Assembly: GCF_037975245.1 (NCBI RefSeq) | Contig: NC_092572.1 | Span: forward strand, 22,612,489 to 22,676,488 | From: Apostichopus japonicus | Taxonomy: Eukaryota; Echinodermata; Holothuroidea; Aspidochirotida; Stichopodidae | DNA: 64,000 nucleotides | Direction of reading: 5' to 3' | In this document: one piece after another, positions 4,251-58,818 of the stretch | How positions within the stretch are numbered: position 1 is the first letter of the stretch | Layout of the letters: each line of letters opens with the position of its first letter | Made by a program: the position numbers and the translations under genes | The notes under the pieces: generated by a model | Told to the model about the DNA's origin: nothing | The model's input: only the letters and a program-made list of their open reading frames with translations | Databases searched by the model: none

Positions 4251-4325
4251 TTAACTAGATTTCACAGAATCATTCTTAAATTCTTCTAATAAATTTCTGA
4301 CTTGATTCAGTTGTGTTGCTACTTG
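4251..4325 (-). CDS. Terminal tail exon 37 with stop codon
   Basis: Entered in phase 0 from a TATATAG acceptor with a weak pyrimidine tract. Encodes [16 protein letters not shown] then KNDSVKSS and TAA at 4253-4251. The peptide is helical like its neighbours and the frame agrees, which supports it as the last coding exon. No convincing AATAAA close downstream was found, so the 3' end is unplaced. Confidence 0.65.
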   Translation of the reverse strand, partial: QVATQLNQVRNLLEEFKNDSVKSS

Positions 4326-7300
4326 CTATATAATTGTTGTTGCAGGACGAATAGCAAGGTAAGAGACGTTTGCTATAGGAAACGGAACGGATTATTGTCA
4401 AGCTGGTACATTTGTATTGCCTAGCAAATACATGTGACATCCTAACAATAAATATGCAACTTATCTTTCTGAATGAAGAATGCACGGCAGTTAATCTTGC
4501 AATTTCGTTACAAAGTCAATAAGTCAAAGTCAAAATAATGTACTTTATTATTTGTAACCAATCCACGATTTTATCTGGATGCGTTATGTTGACCGGCTAT
4601 CATTTTCCTTCACAAGTCTCCACATAGATGTCCATAGAATTCGTGGGGCGATTTCTTTCAATGAACTGTATTCCTGCCACGGCTCATCCTTTATGGTTTT
4701 TGTCCCAGTGCTCTTCATGGGAACTGAATATAAAAATAATAATTGTATTGCACATGATCAATGTGCACAACTTTTAGAGACATAAAACTAATAATCCCTT
4801 GTCATTTGCATTTGGAAAAAAAAAAGTCAGAATCCGAACGATCATTTTTTTTTTGTAAGGTACTTGTGAACTTTGTTCTAAAGATGAGGCTATCATGTTA
4901 GAGGAATGTTCATTGTATGAACTATTTCTTAACACACATGGATATGTCACATTATCGGTTTACTTACTTTCATTTTTTTAATAAGTTCCTCTCGAATGTT
5001 CTTTTCAATCTGCAATGAAAATGAAAACAAAGTCGATATTACCTGTTTCAATTCCGGTTACAATCATTTTATCCAAAATAGAAAGCCAAGAAATCATTAC
5101 AAGGAACAGAAACTCTTTTGGTCAGACAAGACTCGACCTTCACTAACTTTTTAAGTGGGACTTCCTTCCAAAGTTATAACATTGTAACTCTCTGTGTTGG
5201 ACATGCAAAGCATTCGCGACTGATTTATTGATATTTATTAAGTTCACACCACACACACACACACACACACAAAAAACGATTTTAGTGCAGTAATTGCATT
5301 CAGTTAACGTAAAATGATACTCACTTTCATATTAAGTTTCAACATTTTGTTTAAATCGTCTTTCTTCATCTGGGATAAGGTAAAAAGACGTTGATATTAA
5401 GATAAATTTTGTCAACATTTTATGATCACAAAGTTACATCTAGTGTCCACCAACCTAATCCATAATTATTACAGCGCCGGGCACATTTATACATGTTTAT
5501 GATGTTCTTAACGGCTATATAGCAATAGGAATGAGGTTATAAGTAGGCTGGGTTCAATTAAACAGGGATTGTTTATATTTCCTGTTTGTATCTACAAAAC
5601 CACTTATTTCTAAGACGCTGTGATCTACCTTATTTTTATACTTACTCCTTACGTGAATGTTACTGTAGCTTTGAAATTAACAACATTGTAAGCAGTCAAC
5701 TACATCAATTCCAAAAATTGTCAAACATGGTACAGCATCAATTTTTACAGAAATTGTGGTCTCAATTCGTGCCACATTTTGACGTATTTCTCACCAAGTC
5801 AGAAATTATCAACCATTAATTCTCATTAATGGAAAAATAATAATGGTTCCGTCTTCGTTTACGTCGATTGGCTCCATTAATCGATACATGCGTACTTTTA
5901 GTAGGTTGCATGCATGTAACGTAATGTAATGTAAATAAATTCTTAAAAGGCGCATTACATGTAAAAGCATCTCAACGCGTCGTACAACATATACATTGCA
6001 AGCAATGAAATAAAATTATTTCATTAAGCGGACGCATAGGCGTCCGTTTGCCCTTTTCTGTGTTTTTTTTTCTATCTGCGGAAGCCCGTGGTAGGATAGC
6101 AGTGAAGATAGTTTCTACAGTGTCCGAGTCAGTCGATCGGGTCTTTGTGAACATTCAAGACCTCCGTAGCGCTGTTAACATTCCATTATATAAGTTATAA
6201 TACTTTCAGTCGAAATTTAGTGAAGATAATCTCGTCCCCGAGTGTACAGAATGGTATTCTGAGAACATTCAACTGATAGATATATTACTTTACCTCATGG
6301 AACGTTACCACACACTGATACAATGTCGTCCTTGAACTTTTTCCGATCTAAAAGAAAACATACACGTCACATGAGGAAAGGAAGGTAATTTGCTTTCTTT
6401 TGAGCTTCGTCGGTAACAGCCCGGATTCAACACGTCTAGCATCACTCATGGATACCTCAGAGAGTGTCACTGAGCTTTCGTGACAACGTGAACATGATTA
6501 ACAACATCCAAGGTTTGTGAAGTTGCGGTTGCATAAAATATATTTTCTTGCTTTTGGCTACACGAAACTGGTTTGATTTAAATGGACGACGGTATCCACG
6601 TACATACAGTCACATCATAGGCCAATGACCTGTAGTTCTCTATATGAACACGTGTTTATGTGATAATTATCGCAATGTATATTTAAGGAGTGTATCCGAT
6701 CTTTTAATATTTCTGTTTCTGTCATTATTTACAATAATCTTATTGACAAAACTCATTTGCTACAGGTATGTATGTGCATGTGGGTTATCAGATTTACGTT
6801 AACTTAAAGTTTAAAAACGTATCATTGTTTTATTCAATGATCAATTAAGTTGCTTGTATGCTGCACAGGTCTCACCAAGTCTTCATTTGCAAGTTCCGTA
6901 ACGAATTTTATCCATCGGTCTCGGTCCCACTGAAGATAAAATTAAAGTTAACGTTCATGAAGCGACGTAAGAAAGTATCTTATAATATAATGCCATAAAT
7001 GTACTTACAGTAAATTAAATGTTCAGTGAGTTTCCTTCATTTTGTACAGTTTTCCTGATTCAGCCAAGTGATTTGATCAGTTCTACTCTTAATCTCACGA
7101 TATAAAAACTCCAACTAACATGTCAAGCCTTCATTTCACTACAGTATGACCTGTATTGCTCAAAGTAAAACTATTAGATGCCTGATCTTACTTCATATTC
7201 TGGTTTCGTAGTAAGGAACGTCTCACCCTGTAGAATGAAATATAAATAGCAATGCTGGTTAGCTGTACAGATACCCGCTGTATTCAAAAGATCTGTGCGG

Positions 7301-10300
7301 TTTTACCATGAGCTGGTTCAGTAAGTCTACAAAATGCGGTACACTACAGTAACGTATTTAAATATTTGAGAAAACTTAAAACGATATTTGACGAATCATA
7401 CAAGTTAATATACTTAATATATGACGTAATGATAACTTACGATCATGATTGAGAAGATAATAACGTGATTACTACAATATAAATTAAATAGCTAAATAAG
7501 TGAGAAACTTAAATCGACTTGTGAAGAATCATATAGGCTAATATATTTGATATATGACGTAACTTGAACATTACAGTATATTTACCTCCTCCGTTTTATG
7601 CTCCTTATTCTCCCTCTTCATCTTCTCCCTCTTCTTCTCTTTCTCCTGCCTCTTTTTCCCTTTCTCCTCCCTCTTCTTCTCTTTCTCCTCCCTCTTCTTC
7701 TCTTTCTCCTCCTCTTCCTTCTCTTTCTCCTCCCTCTTCTTCGCTGTCTCCTCCCTCTTCTTCTCTTTCTCCTCCCTCTTCTTCTTCTCTTTCTGTTCGT
7801 TAGATGTTATGACAGATAATTTGAGTAGATTTAGTGTTGGTCTGCATCTTTTTGTTATTGTCAGCATATATTCATTACCTGGAGGTCATAATATCTACAC
7901 TAACCTTCACAAGCATATAAAACTCAAAATACGCATGGTGTTAATATAAAGGGTTTGCATTTACTTCTTGTGTTGAATATTTACCTTTGTTTCTCCACCA
8001 TTGATAAGGTTGGTCACTTTCTGCTCAAAGCATCTATCTGACAGCTGTTAATGCAACAACAAAAAGTTTTACGACACATTTAGTTACATTATTCAAGTGT
8101 CGTTACAATACTTGAATACTTAGATACTATACACATACCAATTTCTGTCTGAGAAAGTCCTTCAATTTCCCCATGTATTCGTCAAACGTTATCTGTAGAA
8201 ACAAGAAGATGAATTTCATTTATATACGCACGTAATATTTATGTATCGTTCACAAATGATAATGTAAACAGTAAGACAGGTTTTTCTATTTGTATTCATT
8301 GCATAATTCCCTATCAAACCATGATCTCATGTAATACACATAACAAGTAGAGTACGCCACTAACCTTTCCTTTAGGAGTGACAAAATGCCACAATTCTTG
8401 GACAAAATACTCGTCAGATATCTGTCAAGTAATAATGAAAGCATTGTTAAGTACAAAGTGCATCTCATCACGGTACATATTTCATTTAAGCTTCCAATGA
8501 TCAGTCAATGGAAATATTCATTTCCGTTATTTCTATTAATACCCAGCTGTTACAATTTATTCTGTCAGTCTTTCACTACAACTGAGACGTACTCAAATAT
8601 CGCATAAATGTATTTATAGAACGCGTTGTTATTCACTTACCATCTTTCTCATTAAAGTTTGCTCCAGAATCTCTATGCCGTGGTCTGCTGAATCCTGCAT
8701 GAAATGTAAGGAATTTTGTTTCAAGCCGACCTTTTCATTATGCACTGAATGAACATGAAATATGTTCTAAGCGTGAAGATTTTATTAAACAGAAACAACA
8801 GAACTTAAAGATAACAAATAGTTCATAACCGATAGAAAAGGTAATTAAAACTATTATCTGTGATAAACATTACTACAGTGTATCAGATGGCAAAAAATTG
8901 ATAGTTCAATTAGTCAGAAAAGCCAATCGCATAGACACTCACCTGTGGATTATGTGTGTAAGAAGATACGTGTTGTTCAACCTCTTCTTGGGAAACCTGG
9001 TTATCGGTAGAACAGCAAGAAATATAGACCACGGCCATGAACACAATTTAAAAATTGAGAACATACAAATTAGTAAGAATGTGTCACTAACTTGGTGTTA
9101 CAATGAAGTCATCAGTCTAATTTATGTTACACAATCAACAATATAACCGTGTCTTTAAGTACCTTTGTATTCTGAATCATCTCCACGCATTTGTCAGTCT
9201 TGATCTGTGGAAGCAAAGGTGTTCAAAGTAATGATAGTAGTTGTACGGAGAGGTATACACCAACGGGCCTAGTAACTCATTCATGGTTGTATATTTCTTG
9301 ATCATGAATAAACAATAATAAACGTCACTAAAGATAAATCACAGCGCCAATATGTGTGCTGCTTCGTTGCATGTAACACGTTCAGCACTTTTCGCATTAT
9401 TCATTTGGTAAAACTAATTTTTAATATAACAAAGATAAAATAAATCAAATCTGAAACAGAGTACTTAATCCACATCAGTTGTCATCACTGTAATGATGTA
9501 ATTGTGTATTGTCATTCCAATTCTCGTCACACTCATACAGGTACAATACCAATATCTCCTTGCTATGTATAATGCAACAATTATTATGTTTCCCACAGCG
9601 AAAGTCAGAAAGTCCACTGACAGGACAATACACATAGACGTAGGAAGTGGTGGAGAGGGGAGGGGGGGGGGCGCTGGCGGGCTGCAGCCCCAACCAAATG
9701 TTTTTGTGAAAATTCGGGCTATATGCTGAGAATTTTTCGGGCACCTACTGAAAGAAAAATAAATTGCAATGATATAGCTTAACGAAGTCAATAGTTTAAC
9801 AAAAATCTCCTTGGTAATTAAAATAAAGTTCTAAGCTTGTCCGACTAATTCGTCATTACTAATGCCATTACTAAATGTCTCCAAACTTCTCAAAAAATGA
9901 TTACCAATATAGAAGGGTAATAACACGGCAAATGATTGTATGTAATTGGAATGCGATGTAATAACTGATGCATGCCTATGTAAATTAGCTATGTTATATT
10001 AATGTAAACTGACAATTCTATATTTCATGTTGACGATTTCATTTGCGAACTTGTTTAATTTTACCTTTTTCTCTCAACCTGGATTGCGTTATTACAAATA
10101 TTGACAGTTAGGTTTGACGAACATTTCAATTAGATGCATCTATGGTCTCAACTTACCATCTTAGCATCCATTGAGAAAATAAGCGCCTCGATGAGAGCTT
10201 GCTGTAATATCTGTAGAAAAGAATCAAAGTAGTAACGATATCCATCTCATTGATTGATCTCTCCACATCATTTCACCGTATGGTTATTCAGTTTACCTTA

Positions 10301-13300
10301 TTTAGGGCGTCTTTGTCAAATTTCTCGTCAGCCGAGTCTGTTAACTTGCGAGATCCAATCTGTTAAATTGAATGCAATTCAGAACAACAACTCAGTTTTT
10401 GTCGTTTTCATGATATACTATCCGATACCTACAAAATAAAAAAGCACAAAGCCTGTACCGATTTATAGAATGACAGATTGTGACATTTACACCTTACCAC
10501 AAGCCCCTATAACATTATTCATCACGAATATGGTTGTGAAGTGACGGATTCTATTTGTCTACATTTCCCAAATTATATCTAAGATGTCTATCGCTGGGTC
10601 TTGTTTCAAGAAAACCTTTTGTAGCAGTTGAGGGCGAGCGAATTGAAGTTACCTTCAAATTGCATTTTATCTCAACCTGTTATTCTATTAGTCTATATAT
10701 GCTATTTTGCTTTTCACGATTTGGCATATTTAATTCCAATACGATACATCTCTGAACTATTCTTTTTATAAAGTTGAACAAACTAAGGATCTGTATGGAA
10801 GTAATTCTTCATTAAGGGAAAATAAGTCAGTCGTAAGCTACACAATTTACATGCATGTGAAACCAAGGCAGGTTTTCAGATTAAAATGATTTTACTTTAC
10901 ATAGCTGAAAATAAAGAAAATACGTGAAATATATGTTTATATATTTAGTTTAACAATCGCCAAAGAAAACTAATCAGTTACTGGAGTTATCCTTTTGACA
11001 CACTAAAGTTTGATCCTACATAAATTAAGGATTGCTTTTCAAGGATATTTTCAACTGATTCAGACGTAATGCGTTCTTACTCTGTAGTGGTAGGCGTAAA
11101 GGTAAATTAAATTCGTCTACTGGCTACGTTACTAACCACAGCCCTTTCATATTTTTCAACCAATATGGTATAGCGATCATTAAAGATCGTGGCTGTTAAT
11201 TTATAGTTAATCATATTTATCTTATTTGACATTTGTTTCATTTCCCCAGATTCACCCATCACTGGCTGTTTTCTATCTGTTTAAGTTTAGTTTAAGTTAT
11301 GTTCAACATATAAGGATTATGTGCTGATAAATATTCATGACTTTTATTTGACAGCCATGATATAATATGAACACTGTCGTCATAGTCGTCTTTGTTTTGA
11401 CTTTCAATTAACTGATAACATATCAATCTCATTTTCTTCTTTTTGTCCCAACCTGGTGATCTTTCGATGGATTATTCTGTTTAGTTTTATGTGATTCTTT
11501 CCATCTTCCTGATGACAACTGTTTCGCTTAATTCCTCCTTGAGAAAGAAGATCTATGGAATTTCATTTTTTCTTTTGTAAATTCTATACTTCTCTTATAG
11601 CTATTTTCTAACTAGAAATAACTTTCAGTTCAAATTTCATAATAATGGTATCACATTATGTCTTTAACACGACAGAATTTTACAAAAACTCAGATCAGCT
11701 ATTACGTCATATGTATAACTGTAAAAGAGCATTTTCCATCGGAATATCTATTCAATCTACGGTAGATCTGAGGGATTTTTTATTCCTACTTTACCTTTTC
11801 AACAGAATTATTGTCAAGCTTGATGGGCATCTCAATAGTCTTAGCCTGGAAAAGTAAAACAATACGTTAAAACGTGTAATAATTGTGTAACTGGAGAAGC
11901 TCTTCGACTCGTTCGTTTCGTTACTAAAATAAAAGATCAAACACGTGCTTTCAGAAACTGCAATACTTACCATAAGGTTCTCCCAAACACTCTTGAAGAT
12001 ATTGCACAATCGATTTATTGACTGAGAATCGATTTTCTGTGGATAAAAAGAGATTTGAAAGTACAATATGGTAATGTCTTAGGAAAGAAAACTTGATCCA
12101 TATAACATTAATCAAATTTACACTTGTAAAACAGTTCCCGGTTTGCGACATTGTGTTATTGTACGTTACAGTTTGACACATCACAGTCAATATAGGCCTA
12201 TTTAACTGATACATTTAGCTACCATAGACTTACTTGCTGAAATTCCTGATATGTAGACTGAAGAAAATACGGTGTCATATACTAAAAATAGAAAAGTATA
12301 TGAGTAACGTTATACTCCGATCATTTCAACTCTTGAAAACATATCATCTTTTGATTCAGTTTAAGTATCTTTTGAATATTATAATACTAAACATTAAATA
12401 AATGTTGGAAGGAACATTATACAGTTTAATCGAAAACTGAGACGAGGAAGTAAACAAACAAAAACAAAATGTTTCAAAATTCCCACCAATTAATTCAAAA
12501 AGTCAAAAATGATTTTCCTAATCATATATTATACATGTATCACATACCATCAAATACTCCCACAATTTACAAATATCGGGTGTACTGCTGAAAGTTAATA
12601 CATTTTGTGGGTGTAGAAAACGTATTTTTATTCAGATTAAAATATTCCAAAAGCAATGTCCACAATGGATGACACTCACATGATAAGTCTCTGTTTCAGA
12701 AAATAATTCATTCATGATTATATCTTCGGAGATCTGAGGTAAGGGAAAGAACAAAGATAACGGTATACAGAAACGTATGACAATGAAGTGATAACTACAT
12801 CAACTCCAAAAATGTCAACCATTTATGACCGGAATATTATCCTGTCGTTGAACACGCTATTTTGATTCATAACATTTGGTATGTAACTGGTCCTGTCTAA
12901 ATGTAAAGTATCTCTAACAATAATGCAAATTAGGAAGTGAAATGGTTGTCTTACTTCTAATAAACTGACTTTAATGCATCGACCTATATCTGTCTAGGAA
13001 TGAGATATTCATTTCATCGTACCAACACATCGGTCGAACGCATGAGAAGCATAGCATAAATTGTGACATTGCAATTTGTTTTCCTAGTTTTTAATAGCGA
13101 TGTATATAATTTTACAGGAGGTGAGAGAAAACAACTTACGTAATTATTTAGATAGTATCGTAGTAATGTTGATAAGAAGTCTTCTTTTGAACACTGCAAA
13201 AACAAATCAGAGCTTCATTACAGTAATTTTGAAATGTTGGGTAATGTTGGGTTTTTGACTTTTAAATATATTAAAACCCAAATATTGTAAATGTTAAAGA

Positions 13301-16300
13301 ATACATTCATGGCAGTAATTAATCCAAATTATCAATCTGTAGATAGTAGAAATTTATTTTCAAAGTTCAAAGAATACCGATGTTTTTTTTTAATATTATG
13401 AGCTTGTAATCCTTAAAAGGCATAGCGGAAGCAAGCTATACTCACGTATTTCTTGTCAACCAAACCCTTTAGTTCGTTCATGATGAGATCAAATCCAGCC
13501 TGCCATCAAATGATTTATGAAGTTTAGTGAATTATATTTATCTCTTAATTTAACACTAAACGAATGTTATGTTATGTTACACTACACGAATCACCTGCAT
13601 GAAGTACTGTTCTTTCGCAGCCAAACCCATGTCTGTGTTATAAACTAGAAACTCTCTCACGCACTCTCCAATTCCATGTTAATTATGTTTTTTGTTTTCT
13701 AACTGCATATACCATTGCATTGTCCATCAGCTGACTAAGCACACAGCTGTTAACAAGGAGTCCTACAACACTGTTGTTTCTTTGAATGAATAAGGTTACG
13801 TCAAAGTACTTTCTGCCGACTTAGAGTGGAATCTTTAATGTAAGTAACATGCAGATGTTATATCATTAGCAACATGTAGATGTTATATCATTAGTGACAT
13901 GCAGATGTTATATCATTTACATGGGTAAAGTACTTTATACAGACTTAGACGGGAATCTATTATGTGAGTAACATGCAGATGTTATATCATTAGTAACATG
14001 TAGATGTTATATCATTAGTGACATGCAGATGTTATATCATTTACATGGGTAAAGTACTTTGTACAGACTTAGACGGGAATCTATTATGTGAGTAACATGC
14101 AGATGTTATATCATTAGCAACATGTAGATGTTATATCATTAGTGACATGCAGATGTTATATCATTTACATGGGTAAAGTACTTTGTACAGACTTAGACGG
14201 GAATCTATTATGTGAGTAACATGCAGATGTTATATCATTAGTAACATGTAGATGTTATATCATTAGTGACATACAGATGTTATATCATTTACATGGGTAA
14301 AGTACTTTGTACAGACTTAGACGGGAATCTATTATGTGAGTAACATGCAGATGTTATATCATTAGTAACATGTAGATGTTATATCATTAGTGACATGCAG
14401 ATGTTATATCATTTACATGGGTAAAGTACTTTGTACAGACTTAGACGGGAATCTATTATGTGAGTAACATGCAGATGTTATATCATTAGTAACATGTAGA
14501 TGTTATATCATTAGTGACATGCAGATGTTATATCATTTACATGGGTAAAGTACTTTGTACAGACTTAGACGGGAATCTATTATGTGAGTAACATTCAGAT
14601 GTTATATCATTAGTAACATGTAGATGTTATATCATTAGTGACATGCAGATGTTATATCATTTACAAGCGTTAAGTACTCTCTACCGACTGAGACGGGAAT
14701 CTTTTATGTAAGCAACATGCAGATGTTATATCATTAGCAACATGCAGATGTTATATCATTAGTGACATGCAGATGTTATATCATTTACATGCTTAAAGTA
14801 CTTTTTACCGACTTAGACGGGAATCTTTTATATAATTACATGCAGATATTATATTATTTACATGGGTACATGCATACGACAATCACTCTATCAATTTGAT
14901 TTTGTACTTTTAATCAGTAGTAAATAATTTCGCGTGATATACGTGATACGCTACAAACGTCTAAACGGGTAACTATCCAATCAATATAATTTGTTTATTA
15001 ATTCATTGATTTATTTTTTTGTTATTCATGATACTTACGATGGGTCAACATTGTAGCTATCATCATACTTACGATGTTATTTTATGCTATCATCATTTTT
15101 ACGATGGGTCATCTTTGTATGCTATGATCATACTTACGATGCTTTCGCTGAGCAAGGATCCTGATAACTCAACGTAACGTAATAATCCAATCTGAAGCAA
15201 TGACGCAGAACAGTGTATGGTTAGCACGGTATGCGTCTGGATTGTTTGTCATTTGAAATTATTGATATTAATAATGCCATTGTCTCGTGGATGCATGGTA
15301 TTTCGTTAATGAAATAATTTCATCACCTATTTTTTTAACGTTGTCTAGTGGCGTACGGCCATGGCCATTCACAAATCAGGATAGCGTTTAAGACGACGAC
15401 GACGATGATGATGATGATCATGATGATAATTTTGGCAATTCAGCAAACAATGTTATTGTTCCTTTGGCTATATTTTTCCTCCCCTCCATTCCTTCCTGTC
15501 TTTTTAATTGATTTTGTATAATTACATTTTACATTAGTCGAGCATTGGGTGATAATACTTACAACTCTTCTTTGAAGTAGTTTTCCTACCAGGGTGATGT
15601 AGTTAGTAGATGAAATCTGTTGATGAAAGTAAAACACGTACAGTGTCACAAATCTGCATTATGCATTAAACTATTCACGTTGTGTGAAGTTCACTCGAGT
15701 AAGAATACAAACTAGTATTTTATTACTACTAGCCCCTATGGACCGAAATAGAGGCTATTTAAATAAATAATAAAGCAAAATCACGTGAAGTCTCTTATTA
15801 TTTCGGATATTATTCGATTCCCACTTACCCGATTATGTCCAAGTAGTTCATCCAACATCTTAAGAAAGTGTCCAACCTACGCAAGAAACAAAATAGTTCA
15901 TTTTTAGTAAACTCTCTACATTTTCGATATAGGTTTTAAATCAATGTGATTCGATGTCACTTACCCAGTCATTTTGAAAGTTATCTACAACGAAGTGCAG
16001 AATTTTTAGTACTTCTTGCTGTGAAAAAAAGAAGACCAGTTTTACAACTAGACAGTTCTTGTGATCTTAGATTCCTAATTTTGTCATTTTCAAATCAGAG
16101 ACATTCTATTATCAAACTCACCTTACTTTGCATGCATCAATTAAATTACTATTAATCATAAAATAATTCCACAAACATTACTACGATGTATTTTTTTTTG
16201 GGGGGGGGGGGAGTGGCATTGCCATGCTGATACAAGAAAAAAAATAATCCCAAAGTAATCTTCTAAAGAAATGAAGTGGATGAGAAAACTTGTACCATAA

Positions 16301-19300
16301 CGATTCCATTGAAAATTCAAGCAGCTTATGCAAGGCAAAATGTCTTCATTCCGTCTGTATTATAATCATGATTCAGTGTGTTATTTCTGGTTTAGCGATT
16401 CAGAGAAAAACTAACATATTTGTCACTGACCTCGTTAGAAACATTTTGGTTCTTCAAAAATCCAGTCAGAAACGGTATTGGAATTGTAACCTGTTGAACA
16501 AGGCGAAGAGAACTTGAACTTAACACAGACGTAGACATGGTGATATTCACATGATTGCGTTATATAAAGATACTCGGTTCTAGTCTTATCCGATACTAAG
16601 AACTAAAGTTACATACTTCATGAACATATTTTGTTTATATCATACTCAAATATTTTGTACTTTTAAAAATTATTTCTGATAATATTGCCCGGGACAATTC
16701 CTTTCACATAAATGCTTTATATTGCAAATTTTTCTATTGGTCTGTGCTCACGACTTTCCACAAATATTTCGTCACACAAATGTGGTCATTAACGATTCAA
16801 GGACAATACTTATTATATCTTGTAATCATTGAGAAAACTACTGGCATATCTCATCAGTAGTTTTTCCAGGTTAGTGAATACATAATTTCTCCTTTCGAAA
16901 ATGTCATCAAAGCAATTAACACGTGCTCTATAATTTGAGTTGGAGTTGCTTACTTTATTATCAGTACAGAATGATTTCATCATTTCTTTGAATGCTTCTG
17001 GTGTCGTCTGAAAGAAGGTAAAATTAATCGGCCTTTTCATAAGTTTTCGTGACAGTGGTACCTTTATACAGGGAATATAATTTCTTAACGTAACCGTGAC
17101 TGCTTCACAGCATATCACGTCTAGTTAACGTGTGAGTGTGTGTATGGTAACTATTATTATCCTTATAACTTCACCAGGAATCAAAACTGATGGCAAAAAC
17201 TATTAAAAACTTTGAAGTTACAAAAAAGGATCGATTTTGTAGTGTTTGCTGAGAGAATCCAATCCTGAATATTTCTCCATGAGAATGTAATAGACTAAAT
17301 ATTTGTTTCAAAGTATCCTCTCCGACAGATAGCAACAGACGAATGTAAATGTTAAATGACAGATAATTCAACCCCACCATTACCAACCACACCCCACATC
17401 ACCCGCATCACCCTACCACGTTAGACCTCTCCATACAGCCGATTCACACAGAGATTACAGTAACTACTGTAAATCTTAAAGTTTTGTACCACAGTATATA
17501 CTGGATCGTGCTGACAAATGTGATAAATCGGTAGCATGTGCCATTAAGTTTACAGTAAGAACTGAGGATATTTGTAATTCCAACAAATCCCAAACAACTG
17601 GATTTGTTGGAATTATACACATAACCTCAGTTCTTACTGCAACCCTAAAAGCACACGCTACCGATTTATAGCACGATCCAGTTTTAACTGTGGTACAAAA
17701 CTGTAAGATTTACAGTAGTAACTGTGTTCTCTGTGTATATCGGGTGCTCCATTCCACCTACGACACCAAAACAAATGCACAGGACTGAATTTAATACAAT
17801 GTGTAGGTACTTATGTGCACTTAATGACTTTGAATGATCCTACCGATTCTGCGATAATTCCGGAGAAAATCGGTTGGAAAGAATTGTTAAATTTATTCTG
17901 AAATGGAAATATAAGAAAGTCGGTATTATTTTTGTATTTATTACCATACCCAGGTTATGTAAGCGCTTATTAACGGTAAAACAGTCTAACATAGCTGTTT
18001 TAGCCTGTAATTGTGGTGTGGATTCTTAAGTGACTTGGCACATGATATATTTGTCAGTTTATTGGCTCTAAGCGTACACCTTCATAGTATCGAGAGCAAT
18101 TATATTGAATCTTCTATACTATATGTGATATCACACATCCATGTAATGCCGTTCATGCTTTAAGACAAAGGTCGTTTGACAGTGTTTAATGTTAAACTTA
18201 AAAACCCCGTCCAGTATAGAATACTGCACTTCCCCTAGAAAATAAAACTTATACTGGACATACAATGTTACCGCCAAGGAAGTACATGTAACACTTTAAA
18301 CGTCGAGAAAAAAAGTATCAAATGTTGGATTGTCCTTTGTCATTCAGTCGAGTAAGTTAGTAGAATTCGAGGCTTTATGATTCAACGTATTTTAGCAAAT
18401 CCTTAAAATACGGTTGCAACAGTTTCCAGCTTGGTACCTTCACCAAATGATGGGATACTATAGGGACGCACACTTTTGAAGAAAAGAAAGTTGTAGTATT
18501 TAACTTTAGCATTCCTTCCTAATTGATGTATAATTTCAACATAATAACATGACCTTTCACGCTATAACACAGATATATGTAATTACCTGCAAACTATTGG
18601 TCTCCGCTTCACTTGTAAGTTCGTTTTCAATGGTAGGAATTGGCTAGAAGTAATTACAAATATGAAAATAAGAATCTAAATGAACCTTTATCAATATAAC
18701 AATGACGTCACCTATTAAATAAATTCCTCAATCACAAGAACTCGATTGGCAGAAACTCCTTTCGCGTCATTTCCAACAGTTTACATACCAGACTTACCGA
18801 GACGATTGTTATTATATTTGTAAAATTAAAGTAAACATTACAATACTGTGAATGGTATACTATATGTACAAATCCTTTGTAAGAAACAATGCTAACGATC
18901 GATAGTATCGTTACATGGTACATCTAATTGCACAATAACTTTACGTGAACATTTAAGCCTGAACTTGACCTTTTCAAGTACAAACTTTACCAATATTTGC
19001 TTGACCTAACTCTCATCAGTATAAAATTCCTCAACCACTTTATGTGACATATAAGTCATGACGTTTAGCCTCATTTTTGTCAGTTATATTTTCATTTAAA
19101 GTTATTGCAACTATCTCCAGGCTCGGTACTTACCTCGTGTTTTCCTAACTTCATGGGGTAATTGATCTTTTCGTCAGCATCCTGGAAAAACACAAAATAA
19201 AATTAATAATATTTTTGTAAATCACCTGTTCAATCAACAAACAATGGTTGCTCAAATATGTTTGAGCAACCGAGTATTTGTGTGTCTGTTTCATAGCTAT

Positions 19301-22300
19301 CAATAATCCAATCGATCAGCGTGGAGAGACATAACCTATAAATATGCATTGCATGTACCGTCTGCTTCCTATGCCACCCTCTCCAACTCAAAGTTACTTC
19401 ATGATTTATACTGAATGTTAACAATGTCCTTATTCACAATCTTGGGAATGGAAATGAACTAAAATAGAATTTAGTTTTTCTATTTGAACTTTGTTGTTTC
19501 CAAAGTCTCTCGTAGATTTGGTCACGTCATTTCAACTTTTCTCATCATTTCATTTGGAGTTTGTATCTAAGCGTAAGCTTTGAAATTCGTTGCACATATT
19601 ACTTTATACGATTGGTATTAACCATGTACAATGTTAGATCTTCCACATCCTGTCTTGATAGCCTGCATGCTTATAATTGCGATTGCATGGCAATTCTAGC
19701 GTATTATTTGTAAATTAATGATTAACCGTTTTAGATATTTGTCCTAATTCTTGGTCTCCCGTTTGTCCCCTCGTAGTAATTTGTAGATATTGAGGCAGCT
19801 TGCTTAAAACTGAAAGGAACAAGAACATAGAAATAATTATACTCAATTTCCAATCGGTCAGGCAACGTGTGTTTGTGGTGTTTTGAATTTTTAATAGATA
19901 ATATATCGTTTAGGAAATGCGTTTTTCTTCATCTGAATCATATTATTTACAACTGAAGCAATACACCATGTCTCTTGATAGTAAAGTTAAAGACGTTTCC
20001 AAGAGTACAACTGTTTTGCATGCATAAACCTGAACGGATGCAGACTATAAATAGAACAACAAAAGGTAAGGTGTGAAATCATGTGGTAAAAGTCTTCTGT
20101 CAATTGAATATACATACTCATTCATCTGAAAACTGAAGCCTCATGTATTGTATGAGAATGTGTATTGTAATTTAACATTAGATAATTAAATAAAAACCAC
20201 CATCTTCCACTCACTATATTCACGTTTCCAGTAAAACACAATAATCACAATAATCACTAGGAAGAGAAAGAACAAGACGAGAAAAACCACTAGTCCTGGC
20301 CGTCCACCGCTTTCTTCGCCACAACCGCTAGTAGCTGAAAGAAAACAAGAAATATGTTAACATCCAGATGAATTATAGTAACAATTAACTGATTGATACA
20401 TTTTAATTGCAGGATCCTGTGGCATACACGAGTTGCAAGGAAAGCAAGTTGTTGCGTAGGCTAACTTTGAATGTCATATTAATATATTCTCGGCAATGTT
20501 ACTTAGTTTCACTGCTGCCATCTATTTTGAAAGCTCGGGGAGATTCGATCCGTGATGAACTAACCTAAGATCATGGAAAAGACAACAGGGTTTATTTATC
20601 TTAATTATGTATGCAGTCCTATATACTTCGGCGTTCTTTGTAAAATATTGAATTGATCCATGCCTCTCTCATATGTCATCAGATCAAAAGGTGTTGTATA
20701 CAGGTTAACATAAATATTACATACTTTATGATTAATGAAAAATAATTATAGCAAATGATTAACATAAAAATTTGATTGATCTCGATTACTATTTATAAGA
20801 ACAAGTTAACTATCCTCACCTGTTATTAAATTAAATTAAATATTTATAAGAACATTCTCAGAAAATGTTAACTATCCTCACCTGTTATTAAGTTCACAAC
20901 AGACTTGTTAATGTTGTCTTCGTGTTCGTTTTTACCTGGTGTGCATTCTATGCTAACTACCTCACTGCAGTCTGGTATAGTATACTCAACATATAGTTTA
21001 GTATCAAAGGTACCGGGTTGAGTTGACTCCTTTTCGGAATACGTATGGCCGAATATAAAGACTTCTATATCTGTAACTGTGGTATCTAATGTGATTAAAG
21101 GTTTAATGGACGGTCTTGATCCAAAAATAAAGCACTCCAAAGATCCCTCATTTGCCACATTTAGTTCACAGTTATCGAGGTCTTCACATCCTTTGATTAC
21201 GGTTTTCATGAGCGGTGGTGATACTGTGAACAGTAAAGTAAGCATTTCTCTACAAATTTAATTACATTTTTGTCGCCATCATTCCATGAGACGGGAAGTC
21301 AAACATTAAAGTGCCGTTAAATTCTTAAAAAAAGAAAAGAAAAAATTGAAGGAAGCTCCCACTTCTCCAGTTATTGGAAGAAAACCTTGTTAAGTATTAA
21401 TAATAAAGCTACCCGTACTTCGAACGTGGATTCTGAATGCTGTAGATTGTAATATTTGATACTATACCTTATAAACAGAATAATGTAACACATAATAATG
21501 TTCCATTACGAGCCTACATTCATTTCTCTCTTGTTAAACTACTTCATGAAACTGTTTTATTAACACCTGTTTGCGGACTCACCGTGAACTTCCACAGGAT
21601 TTTCAACGATCCTATCAGACTGACCAGTCCAGGAAAAGCACATATAATGGCCCTCATCTCTAAATGTTACTTTATTTACTACGAGCGTCCCATCTTCCTC
21701 TACTTCACATCTATCAGTATCCAAACACGAACCTCCTTCATACTCTGGGTATTTCCTCCACAACAAGTCATATGTTCCATTCGGGTAACGGACCCCCCAT
21801 TCACCTAGTTCACTCTTTGGACATTCCAGGATCAGATCTGATCCACTTTTGAGAAACTGGACCTCTTGTTTAACGACACCATCTTCATTAGATCCTTTAA
21901 CAAACATTCCCACAGGTCTCGGCTCTTGGACGGCCCTGTCTGTTACATCGCAAGTGAAATATTCTAAGTTAAAGTCCTTTGGGTTGTACTCCAGTAATGA
22001 GGTTGATGTGTACAAGCTTGTTGTTATATTCAGAGTATTATTATACCACGATTGTTGTTCTTCTCCGTTAAATGCATTCCACGTAATGTTTACAGGTGGC
22101 CGAGTTTCTTCTGCGATACATAACAGTGTGTTTTGAAGTTTGCTTTCTTCAATACTTCGGCAGATTTCATGACTTGATGAAGCACATGCCTCTATGCTTG
22201 GGTTACTTCTTAGTGAAACTGTGAAATGAAAGTCAGATATTTTTTTTTAAATTCGTATTCAAACATGCATTCGAGTTAATGATGTTTGCCTCCAAATGCC

Positions 22301-24848: not shown

Positions 24849-24940
24849 AATTTGCTGTGGAGAAAACACCCAGGTTATGAAGGAGGTTCGTGTTCGGATA
24901 CTGATAGATGTGAAGCACGGAAAGATGGGACGCTCATTTT
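24849..24940 (+). pseudogene. Relic of an Ig domain related to receptor exon 3
   Basis: Read on the plus strand it gives NLLWRKHPGYEGGSCSDT then DRCEARKDGTLIF. This matches [28 protein letters not shown] of receptor exon 3 almost position for position. The flanks do not continue as a clean Ig exon, so it is a broken copy. It lies about 550 bp upstream of the receptor start, in the opposite orientation. Confidence 0.75.
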
Positions 24941-51140: not shown

Positions 51141-52079
51141 TAATTTTCTCATTTTGCACCTACACCTACTTCTACACCTACTTACTAGCGTTCTTCTCTG
51201 TTAGTAAAATAATTAATGCATCGCCTTGTTATATATTGAAATGAATTAAGTATATACAAGTACCTTTTACATAATGAAAAAATCTAAAATTCGCTGAAAG
51301 CTTTAAACGATCTTTGATAACGATAGTAATACCATTGGTTATTGATGTTTAATGATATTAATCAGTATTCACAATGAAATAAAAGTCATCTATTTACCTT
51401 GCATAGTTTGTACTGAACTAAAACTACTGATTTGAAAGTGGAAGTGATAAAACCTCTTTCTGGGTCACTTAACTTTGCTATAATACTAATAATAAAAATC
51501 ACGCAGGCAGTTACTATAATCATTTTTTTCTCTCGAGGAGATGGTAATTTTGAACACAGGCCTCTTCAATAAAGTACACTTAACATTTGAACAGTGTCAA
51601 CTATTTGTAATGTCTCGGATACAGTTGGTCTGTATCAAATCTTATTGCAGGATTGGAATACGTAACTAACTTCATCAGGATCTTGAGAGCGATTTTTTTT
51701 TGATGATGGCAGACTTTAATTATATACTTGCAACTTACACAGGTAATGCTATCATAAAAGTCGTGTTTTCCTTTTTTGAAGGTATTTATCACTGTTTCGT
51801 TTTATTCGTATAACCGTTTTATTAATATATTCTCAAGCTTCATCAGTCCAAAGCAGTTAGACGAGCTATCACCTGCAGGCTGCAGTGATGTATACTAACT
51901 TCTCTGTGAGAATGCAGCATTTGAAATGCTCAGTGTGGTTACTTTTAATTTGGAAGAGTGAAATTTATTGTCAAATTTCTCTCTAAAAACTAGTAAATTT
52001 TTGGCTCTACAAGAGCTGAGTTTTCTAGTATCAATCTGAGAAGAACAAAATCCCTCCGTGGCCGACAGCTATTGGAATA

Positions 52080-54740
52080 GGTGCATTTATACTTGAAATG
52101 GGGGACAGTGATTGGAATAGGTGCATTTATACTTGAAATGGGGGACAGTGATTGGAATAGGTGCATTTATACTTGAAGTGGGGGGACAGTGATTGGAATA
52201 GGTGCATTTATACTTGAAATGGGGGACAGTGATTGGAATAGGTGCATTTATACTTGAAATGGGGGACAGTGATTGGAATAGGTACATGTATACTTGACGT
52301 GGGGACAGTGATTGGAATAGGTGCAAGTATACTTGAAATGGGGACAGTGATTGGAATAGGTGCATTTATACTTGAAGTGGGGGGACAGTGATTGGAATAG
52401 GTGCATTTATACTTGAAATGGGGGACAGTGATTGGAATAGGTGCATTTATACTTGAAATGGGGGACAGTGATTGGAATAGGTGCATTTATACTTGAAATG
52501 GGGGACAGTGATTGAAATAGGTGCATTTATACTTGAAATGGGGGACAGTGATTGGAATAGGTACATGTATACTTGACGTGGGGACAGTGATTGGAATAGG
52601 TGCAAGTATACTTGAAATGGGGACAGTGATTGGAATAGGTGCAAGTATACTTGAAATGGGGGACAGTGATTGGAATAGGTGCATTTATACTTGAAATGGG
52701 GACAGTGATTGGAATAGGTGCAAGTATACTTGAAATGGGGATAGTGATTGGAATAGGTGCAAGTATACTTGAAATGGGGGACAGTGATTGGAATAGGTGC
52801 ATTTATACTTGAAATGGGGGACAGTGATTGGAATAGGTGCATTTATACTTGACGTGGGGGACAGTGATTGGAATAGGTACATGTATACTTGACGTGGGGG
52901 ACAGCTATTGGAATAGGTGCATTTATACTTGAAATGGGGGACAGTGATTGGAATAGGTGCATTTATACTTGAAATGGGGGACAGCTATTGGAATAGGTGC
53001 ATTTATACTTGAAATGGGGGACAGCTATTGGAATAGGTGCATTTATACTTGAAATGGGGGACAGCTATTGGAATAGGTGCATTTATACTTGAAATGGGGG
53101 ACAGCTATTGGAATAGGTGCATTTATACTTGAAATGGGGGACAGCTATTGGAATAGGTGCATTTATACTTGAAATGGGGGACAGCTATTGGAATAGGTGC
53201 ATTTATACTTGAAATGGGGGACAGCTATTGGAATAGGTGCATTTATACTTGAAATGGGGGACAGCTATTGGAATAGGTGCATTTATACTTGAAATGGGGG
53301 ACAGTGATTGGAATAGGTGCATTTATACTTGAAATGGGGGACAGTGATTGGAATAGGTACATGTATACTTGACGTGGGGGACAGTGATTGGAATAGGTGC
53401 ATTTATACTTGAAATGGGGGACAGTGATTGGAATAGGTGCATTTATACTTGAAATGGGGGACAGCTATTGGAATAGGTGCATTTATACTTGAAATGGGGG
53501 ACAGCTATTGGAATAGGTGCATTTATACTTGAAATGGGGGACAGCTATTGGAATAGGTGCATTTATACTTGAAATGGGGGACAGCTATTGGAATAGGTGC
53601 ATTTATACTTGAAATGGGGGACAGCTATTGGAATAGGTGCATTTATACTTGAAATGGGGGACAGCTATTGGAATAGGTGCATTTATACTTGAAATGGGGG
53701 ACAGCTATTGGAATAGGTGCATTTATACTTGAAATGGGGGACAGCTATTGGAATAGGTGCATTTATACTTGAAATGGGGGACAGTGATTGGAATAGGTGC
53801 ATTTATACTTGAAATGGGGGACAGTGATTGGAATAGGTACATGTATACTTGACGTGGGGGTCAGTAATTGGAATAGGTGCATTTATACTTGAAATGGGGG
53901 ACAGTGATTGGAATAGGTGCATTTATACTTGAAATGGGGGACAGTGATTGGAATAGGTGCATTTATACTTAAAATGGGGGACAGTGATTGGAATAGGTGC
54001 ATTTATACTTGAAATGGGGGGACAGTGATTGGAATAGGTGCATTTATACTTGAATTGGGGGACAGCGATTGGAATAGGTTCATGTATACTTGAAGTGTGG
54101 GACAGTGATTGGAATAGGTACATGTATACTTGAAGTGTGGGACAGCGATTGGAATAGGTGCATTTATACTTGAATTGGGGGACAGTGATTGGAATAGGTA
54201 CATGTATACTTGAAGTGTGGGACAGCGATTGGAATAGGTGCATTTATACTTGAATTGGGGGACAGTGATTGGAATAGATGCATGCATACTTGAAATGGGG
54301 GACAGCAATTGGAATAGGTGCATGCATACTTGATGTGGGGACATTGATTGGAATAGGTGCATGCATACTTGAAATGGGGGACAGCAATTGGAATAGGTGC
54401 ATGCATACTTGATGTGGGGACATTGATTGGAATAGGTGCATGTATATACTTAAAGTGGGGGACAGTGATTCGAATAGGTGCATGTATACTTGAAGTGGGG
54501 GACAGTGATTGGAATAGGTGCATGCATACTTGAAATGGGGGACAGCAATTGGAATAGGTGCATGCATACTTGATGTGGGGACATTGATTGGAATAGGTGC
54601 ATGTATATACTTAAAGTGGGGGACAGTGATTCGAATAGGTGCATGTATACTTGAAGTGGGGGACAGTGATTGGAATAGGTGCATGTATACTTGAAGTGGG
54701 GGACAGTGATTGGAATAGGTGCATGTATGTATTCTTGAAG
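52080..54740 (+). repeat. 40-bp minisatellite upstream of receptor 2
   Basis: Roughly 65 copies of acagtgattggaataggtgc plus atttatacttgaaatggggg. Variants (agctattgg, gtacatgtatacttgacgtg, agcaattgg with gcatgcatac) occur in blocks, showing higher-order amplification. The array ends about 180 bp before the start codon of receptor 2, so it probably abuts or overlaps the promoter. Open frames within it are composition artefacts. Confidence 0.95.
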
Positions 54741-54922
54741 TGGGGCTTTATGGGGAGTTTACGTCGATAAAGCTACCTTATTGCACTAATGGCTTGGTAT
54801 ACAAGAGTAATTATGAAGTTATTTACATATGTACTTATAACTCCGTACATTTGCAACGTGCCTAGCTGTAGGCATACATGCTGAATATTCCACGATGAAC
54901 AACATATTATAAGTGAAGAACA

Positions 54923-55289
54923 ATGTGCATTTTTTGGGCTTTGTTATTGTTTTCAACAGCGTTCATTAGTTTGATGCCAGTGGTCGAAGGAGTTCAAATC
55001 CGTCCCACGAACTTAACTGTAATGCTCGGTGGATCTGTGTGTTTAGTGTGCCCAGTGCCCTCACAGAGAACTGGACTATTATGGATATTGTCGCCAGATA
55101 CAACACTATACCGAGATAACACTAACGTGGGAGGACACAAAATGAAATCAGAATTAAATAATAAATCATGTCATGTAAGTAATTATTCTATCCAAATTAA
55201 GAACATTACCAGATCCAGAGGAGATGGCGAATATCAGTGTAAGGAACATAGGATGGTCGTGGCTACATTTCGGGTTACCATTAACTACG
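54923..55289 (+). CDS. Receptor 2 exon 1: signal peptide and V-like Ig domain
   Basis: Begins MCIFWALLLFSTAFISLMPV with likely cleavage before VQIRP. The Ig landmarks are VCLVC, LLWIL and DGEYQC, a complete Cys-Trp-Cys core. Several N-glycosylation sequons are present (NLT, NKS, NYS, NIT). Unlike the minus-strand gene, signal peptide and Ig domain share one exon. Donor GTAAGG, phase 1. Confidence 0.85.
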
Positions 55290-58200: not shown

Positions 58201-58818
58201 CTACTACTCTGTGCAGCCTTTGCAATGTTCGTGTTCTCCTTCAGTATCTTCACTTTAATACGTTCCCATAGTAGAAGACACACTGAGAGATATGAAAGTT
58301 ACTTTAGTATATTGAGAGGGCGAATGGGAACATTGGAGCCATCGAGTACAATAACAAGGGGACCGTCGATAACGGGACCATCGAGTACAATACCAAGGGG
58401 ACCATCGACTACAATAACAAGGGGGCCATCGAGTACAATAACAAGTGGACCACCGAGAACAGGACCACCAAGTACAATAACAAGGGGACCATCGAGTACA
58501 ATAACAAGGGGACCATCGAGAACGGGACCAACGAGTACGATAACAAGGGGACCACCGAGTACGATAACAAGGGCACCATCTAGTACAATAACAAGGGGAC
58601 CATCTAGTACAATAACAAGTGGACCATCGATAATGGGAACAATGGAACCATTCAGAACAGGAACAAGACCAGTGTTGAATGGAACAACGATGGAATTACG
58701 TCATTACTCGCCGCCTCGTCCCTTGCCGATACCCCCACGTGTGGAAGAAAGACTAGGAAGTGAGGGAGATTACGTAATCATGAAAAGAGTTGTCAATATC
58801 GAGCAGCAGAAGGATTAA
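54923..58818 (+). CDS. Second Ig-superfamily transmembrane receptor (3 exons)
   Basis: Exons 54923-55289, 57158-57484 and 58157-58818, joined in phase 1 twice, give 451 residues. Residues 1-23 are a signal peptide, followed by a V-like Ig domain, a C-like Ig domain (about 123-232), a transmembrane helix (246-266), a Ser/Thr/Pro-rich repeat tail and a C-terminal YVIM motif at Tyr437. It shares the signal-Ig-Ig-TM plan and phase-1 junctions with the minus-strand receptor, but has a compact single-exon tail with no microexons. A membrane receptor role is inferred. The start ATG is supported by the immediate hydrophobic signal sequence. A 40-bp minisatellite ends about 180 bp upstream. Confidence 0.85.
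55620..56068 (-). mobile_element. 3' end of a second CR1/L2-like LINE in receptor 2 intron 1
   Basis: Minus-strand frame ends FSAAGPKLWNSLPHHLGNIT then SIDTFKKHLNTYLFRLEYRH. LWNSLPxxL...xxFKKxLxTYLF is the reverse-transcriptase ORF tail. It is followed by AT-rich 3' sequence. It differs enough from the 31196-31565 copy to be another family. Confidence 0.8.
56500..57120 (+). repeat. About 37-bp tandem repeat in receptor 2 intron 1
   Basis: Units of the type atgttcagggtctattcatg ttcttaatgtaccttaca, roughly 16 copies, ending 37 bp before the exon 2 acceptor. Open frames across it are repeat artefacts. Confidence 0.85.
57158..57484 (+). CDS. Receptor 2 exon 2: Ig-like domain 2
   Basis: A 327-bp phase 1-1 exon entered at TTTTACAG and left at GTAAGC. 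Core residues GELEC, LRWLVDG and NITC give a C-like Ig domain, followed by a Thr/Ser-rich stalk ending TTTNSTQ. The intron before it carries a tandem repeat at 56500-57120. Confidence 0.85.
58157..58818 (+). CDS. Receptor 2 exon 3: transmembrane helix, repeat tail, YVIM motif
   Basis: Entered at ATTCAG. Hydrophobic run LLLLCAAFAMFVFSFSIF, then basic RSHSRRHTER, giving a cytoplasmic C-terminus. The tail contains about twelve imperfect copies of an 8-residue unit TITRGPSS, from a 24-bp DNA repeat. The last residues contain GDYVIMKR; YxxM is the known binding motif for the SH2 domains of PI3-kinase p85, so signalling through PI3K is a reasonable inference. An upstream SYFSIL is a weaker Tyr motif. 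Confidence 0.8.

Follow-up and report, generated by a model that had tools for sequence, protein, structure and literature searches.

A gene on the minus strand of a 64,000-nucleotide stretch of the Apostichopus japonicus genome (G000:C12:22612489-22676488, referred to here as the window, within which all positions are counted unless stated otherwise) probably belongs to a family of type I immunoglobulin (Ig) receptors with a long tail of amphipathic-helix modules, each encoded by one exon of about 54 bp that begins and ends in phase 0 (phase 0-0), the tails having diversified mainly in evolution. This reading rests directly on the array of tail exons and its frame, on its recurrence in a tandem paralog as well as in 8/8 examined relatives on contig C20 of the same genome, on a pattern common to the 18-residue exons, and on whole-exon differences between paralogs.

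The ectodomain and membrane anchor are encoded by exons 1 to 6 (24302-19727, minus strand), which contain a hydrophobic leader, Ig domains, and a transmembrane (TM) segment and are separated by phase 1 introns, with exon 6 ending in phase 0. Two Pfam families match the ectodomain above their family cut-offs (V-set, E value of 6e-9, and C2-set_2, E value of 2e-6), and, with the leader and the TM segment read by eye, the product has the signal peptide, Ig domains, single TM segment, and cytoplasmic tail of a type I receptor of the Ig superfamily. Joined in frame to these exons are the 29 exons of the tail (exons 7 to 35, 19181-4968, minus strand), each of them open, flanked by AG and GT, and phase 0-0. 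Fourteen of the 29 measure 54 bp, three measure 48 bp, two each measure 57, 60, and 42 bp, and single exons measure 66, 63, 51, 45, 36, and 207 bp; together they account for 1,686 of the 3,249 coding bases and encode 562 residues. Spliced together, exons 1 to 35 and a last exon encoding FP and a stop codon give, letter for letter, the 1,082 amino acids of P0001, an “uncharacterized protein” of A. japonicus listed by NCBI and UniRef with one member sequence. The donor of exon 6 is the lowest scoring of the gene, and read-through at this site hits a stop after three codons. No further hidden exons were found in the window, where AG-led stretches outside the set reach a score of 7.9 at most, versus 8.3 for the highest control.

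The exons are listed below. Exons 1 to 6 are based on the gene model and P0001, with Pfam in addition for exons 2 and 3 and splice scores for exon 6, and exons 7 to 35 on the gene model and recurrence in the tandem paralog; labels beginning with C20_ denote genes on contig C20.

24251..24302, minus: exon 1, hydrophobic leader, read by eye as a signal peptide
22390..22710, minus: exon 2, V-set Ig domain, phase 1-1
21583..22218, minus: exon 3, Ig-like domains, phase 1-1
20882..21223, minus: exon 4, remaining ectodomain, phase 1-1
20215..20334, minus: exon 5, TM segment by eye, phase 1-1
19727..19809, minus: exon 6, juxtamembrane, phase 1 to 0, weakest donor of the gene
19134..19181, minus: exon 7, 48 bp, phase 0-0
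18587..18643, minus: exon 8, 57 bp, phase 0-0
17844..17897, minus: exon 9, 54 bp, phase 0-0
16954..17007, minus: exon 10, 54 bp, phase 0-0
16431..16490, minus: exon 11, 60 bp, phase 0-0
15965..16018, minus: exon 12, 54 bp, phase 0-0
15829..15876, minus: exon 13, 48 bp, phase 0-0
15563..15616, minus: exon 14, 54 bp, phase 0-0
15138..15191, minus: exon 15, 54 bp, phase 0-0
13446..13499, minus: exon 16, 54 bp, phase 0-0
13140..13193, minus: exon 17, 54 bp, phase 0-0
12680..12733, minus: exon 18, 54 bp, phase 0-0
12234..12281, minus: exon 19, 48 bp, phase 0-0; equal-length counterparts in C20_3077 and C20_2994
11971..12036, minus: exon 20, 66 bp, phase 0-0
11795..11845, minus: exon 21, 51 bp, phase 0-0
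11221..11276, minus: dead exon 21b, 56 nt, without a GT donor; paralog counterpart 57 bp, phase 0-0, AG/GT
10297..10359, minus: exon 22, 63 bp, phase 0-0
10157..10210, minus: exon 23, 54 bp, phase 0-0
9163..9204, minus: exon 24, 42 bp, phase 0-0
8943..8996, minus: exon 25, 54 bp, phase 0-0
8641..8694, minus: exon 26, 54 bp, phase 0-0
8365..8421, minus: exon 27, 57 bp, phase 0-0
8139..8192, minus: exon 28, 54 bp, phase 0-0
7985..8044, minus: exon 29, 60 bp, phase 0-0
7586..7792, minus: exon 30, 207 bp (69 residues), phase 0-0, coding K/E-rich 21-bp minisatellite; paralog 54 bp (18 residues)
7192..7227, minus: exon 31, 36 bp, phase 0-0
6876..6929, minus: exon 32, 54 bp, phase 0-0; W-x4-W-(I/V)-(K/R) start common to exons of C20_3077, C20_2994, and C20_25831
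6294..6347, minus: exon 33, 54 bp, phase 0-0
5325..5369, minus: exon 34, 45 bp, phase 0-0
4968..5009, minus: exon 35, 42 bp, phase 0-0
4544..4723, minus: last exon, FP-stop (4723-4715) and 3' untranslated region to AATAAA at 4549, putative 3' end

Several repeats lie in or next to this gene. Intron 1 holds 187 copies of GATG (22912-23658), and intron 15, the longest of the array, holds 8.5 copies of a 124-bp repeat (13803-14858). A 35-bp repeat (91%; 20894-20860 and 20832-20798, minus strand) duplicates the donor region of exon 4 inside intron 4 and could provide an alternative donor. Just upstream of the gene, an inverted 84-bp fragment (24852-24935, plus strand) is 88% identical to exon 3 and is a remnant of another copy.

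The tail exons stand out by their splice signals without any reference to their frame. When 2,325 AG..GT pairs of 30 to 75 nt on the gene strand (19726-4200) were ranked by a generic splice model blind to frame, exons of the set filled 10/10 of the first 10 places, 16/20 of the first 20, and 24/40 of the first 40; none of the 28 short tail exons ranked below place 100. In the same kind of ranking, 2/20 of the top 20 candidates on the opposite strand were symmetric and open. Under stricter cut-offs for each site, all candidates on the gene strand belonged to the set (13/13), and 0/2 on the opposite strand were symmetric and open. This frame-blind ranking, together with the identity to P0001 and the recurrence in the paralog, bears out an earlier suggestion, made from the sequence of the window (the original prediction), that a chance origin of these exons is very unlikely.

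The original prediction was also right in describing a membrane Ig receptor with a cytoplasmic tail encoded by an array of small, frame-neutral exons. It counted 31 tail exons with about 599 residues, of which 29 (exons 7 to 35) are present in P0001 and give 562 residues, and two, as deduced, are absent. All confirmed internal exons begin and end in phase 0 without an in-frame stop (29/29), and fourteen are indeed exactly 54 bp (14/29). Which stretches the two extra exons were can be deduced, since the predicted array ends at 4251 and its 599 residues equal 562 plus 13 residues from 12993-12955 (site scores of -0.4 and 2.5) and 24 residues from 4325-4251 (acceptor score of -7.6). The name “microexon” is loose, with 0/29 at or below 27 nt, 1/29 at or below 36 nt, and 8/29 at or below 51 nt. 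The two deduced exons are as follows.

12955..12993, minus: deduced extra exon of the original prediction, 39 bp, weak sites, not in P0001; probably no exon
4251..4325, minus: deduced last exon of the original prediction, acceptor -7.6, past AATAAA, not in P0001; probably no exon

The tandem paralog, whose product is referred to here as P0002, lies just past the left end of the window and encodes a protein 83% identical to P0001. Its tail DNA (C12 22604624-22589603) contains 29/29 exons in the same order, flanked by AG and GT and made up of whole codons, and 28/29 have identical lengths in both genes, the exception being exon 30 (207 bp in the window versus 54 bp). Between the two genes, 28 exons (1,479 bp) show a divergence of 8.9% and 0 indels, versus a divergence of 13.5% and 87 indels in 24/27 compared introns (7,794 aligned bp); exons 30 and 21b were left out of the exon counts, and intron 21 and 3/27 compared introns with less than 75% identity were left out of the indel rate. 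The introns predict 16.5 indels for the 28 exons, of which none was observed (Poisson P of 7e-8). The ratio of nonsynonymous to synonymous substitution rates (dN/dS), from which exons 30 and 21b were likewise left out, was 0.75 for the tail (exon bootstrap, 0.50 to 1.12), not significantly below 1, with the lowest regional value in exons 12 to 20 (0.54) and a value of 1.15 in exons 7 to 11. Residues are identical between P0001 and P0002 at 80/106 positions of Ig exon 2, at 147/162 of exons 12 to 20, and at 19/43 of exons 6 and 7. The reading frame of the tail is kept while its residues change fast between the tandem paralogs.

A noncoding array, a pseudogene, or a separate gene unjoined to the receptor would agree with a dN/dS interval that includes 1 and with the dead exon 21b. 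We consider this highly improbable, given that P0001 and P0002 join the exons to the receptor, that 0 indels in 1,479 exon bases compare with 16.5 expected, and that the order of ectodomain, TM segment, and array recurs in 7/8 relatives. An origin as a pseudogene or by chance was rejected on the identity to P0001, the recurrence in the paralog, and the lack of indels in 28 exons.

Apart from the length of exon 30, the tandem genes differ by a whole exon. Exon 21b (57 bp, phase 0-0) is an additional exon of the P0002 gene, and a recognisable counterpart of it in intron 21 of the window gene scored 51, where 300 shuffles did not exceed 40 and the other introns did not exceed 26. In this counterpart the GT donor is missing and the frame is shifted by one base. 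The 21b module is present in the paralog and dead in the window gene, with both frames intact, and its loss in the window seems likelier than a gain in the paralog.

Further copies were sought among proteins, by searches that are blind to relatives with no shared 5-residue words. The tail of the full-length protein found only P0001 and P0002, and a tail-only query of 444 residues gave no protein at an E value of 1 or less. The sole find with the ectodomain was P0003 (A. japonicus BSL78_12770), a partial sequence with an ectodomain 86% identical to P0001 and 87% identical to P0002, which is either a third gene copy or a divergent allele. None of these protein searches gave a product of a C20 gene.

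A genome search with P0002 yielded 43 matches, on contigs C20, C16, C12, and C7. For the array scan we used a sample of 20 kb each from 8 of the ∼11 genes on C20 and from 2 of the 13 places on C16, with a splice model trained on the window and the paralog only. On the gene strand, the eight C20 loci contained 175 non-overlapping short candidates; 151 of these were symmetric, 134 were in addition open, and 92 had a length of exactly 54 bp, versus 27 candidates on the antisense strand (11 symmetric, 5 symmetric and open, and 1 of 54 bp) and 8 at the two C16 loci (3, 2, and 0, respectively). A scan with a generic model, in which overlapping candidates were counted, gave a similar picture for C20, with 201 candidates, 157 symmetric and 135 symmetric and open, versus 48, 16, and 7 antisense. 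Arrays are found in 8/8 C20 relatives examined and, within 20 kb, in 0/2 ectodomain relatives on C16. The predicted chains comprise 16 to 30 modules per C20 locus, several of them reaching the end of the 20-kb stretch, and a hydrophobic TM exon, sought as phase 1-1, precedes the array in 7/8 of these genes. A ninth C20 gene (25468k) has matching tail exons in the genome search. The exon order of C20_3077 and C20_2994 is collinear with that of the window gene (P of 0.003 each, the floor of 300 shuffles); as aligned examples from these two genes, exon 19 (16 residues) pairs with IPYPYFLQSIHNKFQG and exon 32 (18 residues) with WTKEKWIKLVCELQDEKL. We propose a family of helix-exon receptors, defined by an Ig ectodomain, a TM segment, an array of ∼54-bp phase 0-0 exons, and a common motif, which includes the window gene, its tandem paralog, and 8/8 C20 genes (TM segment in 7/8).

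Each exon seems to carry one sequence module. Hydropathy in the fourteen window exons of 18 residues follows a common profile that peaks at positions 1, 6, 7, 10, 13, and 14, and their between-position variance was equalled by 0/20,000 shuffles and 0/20,000 rotations. For the motif analyses we left out window exons 7, 21, 22, 30, and 31 and dropped 5/134 C20 exons outside 14 to 22 residues. A leave-one-out motif reached a P value below 0.05 in 12/24 window exons (Fisher, 1e-11), and the motif trained on the window scored 16 standard deviations above shuffles on the 129 C20 exons, which had been found by splice signals alone. The hydropathy profiles of 18-residue exons from the window and from C20 (n = 88) correlate with an r of 0.94, versus 0.34 for the best rotation. 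The commonest residues of the module, roughly I-[TS]-x-[ED]-[ED]-[FY]-[LI]-x-x-L-x-x-[LC]-[LI], are, as we interpret them, those of a single amphipathic helix preceded by a hydrophobic staple and capping box. In the first of two AlphaFold2 models, 6/26 tested exon boundaries lay within a helix versus 13.0 to 13.6 expected (P of 0.01 to 0.02), a comparison made in this model only and with 2/28 boundaries dropped.

The module did not lead to a known domain. Pfam gave nothing above cut-off for the tail of the window gene and three C20 tails, and a sequence search of PDB gave nothing for the window tail up to an E value of 10 and one chain, at an E value of 2.1, for one C20 tail; membership in a known helical-repeat family was therefore not supported by either search. 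The tail contains no immunoreceptor tyrosine-based activation motif (ITAM), and a single match to the pattern of the inhibitory motif (ITIM) occurs in P0001 and none in P0002 (0.9 expected by shuffling). TNYITL, a TxYxxL sequence, is found in both proteins, and P0001 has two TxYxxL matches versus 0.2 expected. We rejected tyrosine-motif signalling of the ITIM/ITAM receptor type because there is no ITAM and the ITIM match is not kept in the paralog, though TNYITL is conserved.

In C20_25766, six exons are variants of one module (around VDKES-F..MSL-KED), and two-exon units with a spacing of 1,198 bp share 98.5% identity across 550 bp, intron included. These tandem two-exon duplications (C20:25765800-25785799, L017-L018, at about 12200-15900) are so recent that the copy number may differ between individuals. 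C20_25506 has five copies of the module, and its pairing with C20_25766 comprises 17 exons with 245/306 identical residues (80%). Nine consecutive modules predicted in C20_25506 are missing from C20_25766, where the flanking exons are ∼310 bp apart. In our reading, the order of the exons is partly conserved, and a block of them varies in its number of copies. The variation that can be demonstrated is in the number of exons between paralogs.

Alternatively, an old helical protein could have been split by many intron gains at its loops, so that the exons are not duplicated modules. Most pairs of window exons show little similarity, and a DNA self-comparison of the window gene revealed no duplicated tail exon, as this origin would predict. 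The recent tandem duplications of exons with their introns in C20_25766 and C20_25506 disfavour it for the C20 genes, however, and the register of the motif is shared with the exon starts, so that we regard intron gain as an unlikely source of the array.

From all this we infer, for a type I receptor family with one helix per exon, a mechanism in which the window gene would be one member of a set of A. japonicus membrane receptors with an Ig ectodomain, one TM segment, and a long cytoplasmic tail, where each tail exon may encode one short helix (29 here, 16 to 30 predicted in C20 genes). The helices would pack into an elongated or bundled scaffold that lacks enzyme activity and may recruit cytoplasmic partners. 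Most transcripts would include most tail exons, and the tails would have diversified mainly in evolution, by copying and losing exon-plus-intron units, because such a gain or loss changes one helix without disturbing the frame. Diversification of animal receptors is usually sought in the ligand-binding half. A wider proposal, which we put forward tentatively, is that sea cucumbers have evolved receptors with a length-adjustable helix array, in which single-exon modules are gained and lost in the genome, perhaps with copy numbers that are polymorphic between individuals, and, by way of these frame-neutral exons, in transcripts as well; if true, the signalling part would be diversified as well as the ligand-binding part.

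The original prediction had instead inferred that the receptor can produce, through splicing, tails in a very large number of forms. Skipping of tail exons is possible as far as the gene structure goes, since any internal tail exon could be left out without a frameshift or stop. Several tail exons also have weak splice sites, the weakest donor of the gene is that of exon 6, where read-through soon ends, and the record of P0002 is named “isoform X2” and has 5 member sequences; in addition, the tails of Dscam and FcoR are variably spliced, according to the excerpts of the reports cited below. Combinatorial splicing, in which cells pick different subsets of the 29 frame-neutral exons, nevertheless appears improbable and the claim of a very large tail set unsupported: the one member sequence recorded for the window gene carries all 29 exons, exon number differs between paralogs instead, and exon order is kept in 2/8 distant paralogs. 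Phase 0-0 throughout is predicted equally by exon duplication, since only symmetric exons duplicate without a frameshift, so that phase alone is no argument for skipping. The collinear order in 2/8 relatives and the helix-like pattern of the modules make us lean towards constitutive inclusion. A constitutive core of exons with a few cassettes, as in Dscam tails, is a realistic possibility to which the same facts apply, including the “isoform X2” naming; against it, the record of P0002, where some isoforms seem to be listed, does not show which exons differ between them.

Several observations weigh against a family of mainly evolutionarily diversified helix arrays. The weak sites of several window exons (ranks 34 to 72) and the P0002 record leave room for skipping, and the dN/dS of the tail is not significantly below 1. 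The C20 chains are predictions in which single members may be false, at a yield of 0 to 2 false modules per 20 kb on the antisense strand and at C16. One of the C20 genes, C20_25368, has no convincing TM exon when sought as phase 1-1, and the collinearity of exon order is nonsignificant in the other 6/8 C20 relatives (P of 0.07 to 0.20). Half of the tested window exons (12/24) do not fit the motif individually, and, because the splice model spans 2 to 3 bases of the exon on either side, the terminal residues of the C20 exons depend to some degree on the window motif. The AlphaFold2 models, built from one or three sequences, have mean pLDDT (predicted local distance difference test) scores of 37.5 and 32.2, which do not suffice to assign a fold; one helix of the second model (646-671) spans the boundary of exons 14 and 15. 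Finally, Pfam gave matches below threshold between the three C20 tails and unrelated families, the best being B-block_TFIIIC (E value of 4e-4, 20.7 bits versus a cut-off of 22).

Elsewhere in the window, a second Ig-type gene was recognised by eye on the plus strand (54917-58818), with a weak V-set match below cut-off (E value of 7e-4) and an apparent TM segment. Its tail comes from a GPSSTITR-like minisatellite and ends ...GDYVIMKRVVNIEQQKD. A 40-bp satellite of 67 copies (52064-54728) lies between the two Ig genes.

Two well-known kinds of genes resemble the tail array in its exons or its helices. Fibrillar collagen genes have many 54-bp phase 0-0 exons but encode a Gly-X-Y repeat, which is missing from the window tail. 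Alpha-solenoid repeats (HEAT, ARM, and TPR) are tandem short amphipathic helices; the likeness is one of analogy, and they differ in that the unit here is a putative single helix of 18 residues, and no Pfam match above cut-off was obtained with the tail of the window gene or with three C20 tails.

The original prediction likened the array to the micro-exon genes (MEGs) of trematodes, a comparison that fails on exon size. MEGs contain numerous small symmetric exons whose skipping leaves the frame intact, their products are secreted or membrane-anchored, and in schistosomes these exons are described, in the excerpts of PMC5825161, as symmetric, 6 to 36 bp long, and making up ∼80% of the coding region. 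The window gene has 1/29 exons of 36 bp or less, and its array covers 1,686 of 3,249 coding bases, lies on the cytoplasmic side, and consists of helix-like exons, so that membership in the MEGs was rejected on both exon size and coding share.

Closer in kind are two groups of Ig receptors. Like the window gene, arthropod Dscam encodes an Ig receptor that has small tail exons, and a part of the Dscam tail exons is optional; in shrimp PmDscam, 7 tail exons are non-constitutive and the tail forms were calculated to number 384 or more, with transcript evidence, according to the excerpts of PMC6851185. No repeated helix module is mentioned in those excerpts. An ectodomain of the Dscam type, with tandem near-identical alternative exons, was rejected, since self-comparison shows only the 35-bp repeat at the exon 4 donor and, elsewhere in the window, only the 84-bp exon 3 fragment. 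The fester and FcoR genes of Botryllus likewise encode deuterostome receptors of the Ig superfamily, FcoR being an alternatively spliced type I receptor with a long tail, and its tails swap ITIM and hemITAM by splicing, as the excerpts of PMC12065747 describe; the tail of the window gene, in contrast, has no ITAM and a single ITIM-like match that is lost in the paralog. Tail variation by splicing, of which the original prediction knew no description among Ig receptors, is thus already on record. In the main text of PMC13228809 the word “immunoglobulin” is missing, and among the open-literature matches listed, judged by title and the start of the abstract, we did not find a family-wide cytoplasmic array of one helix per exon described. 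Set beside these systems, the splicing-varied tails of Dscam and FcoR are what was already known, and such a family-wide array is what appears to be new here: several Ig receptors of one genome have an intracellular half of apparent one-helix exons, which duplicate and vanish in frame and make it possible to study, in a natural setting, how repeat proteins arise by exon duplication and in what way scaffold length influences signalling.

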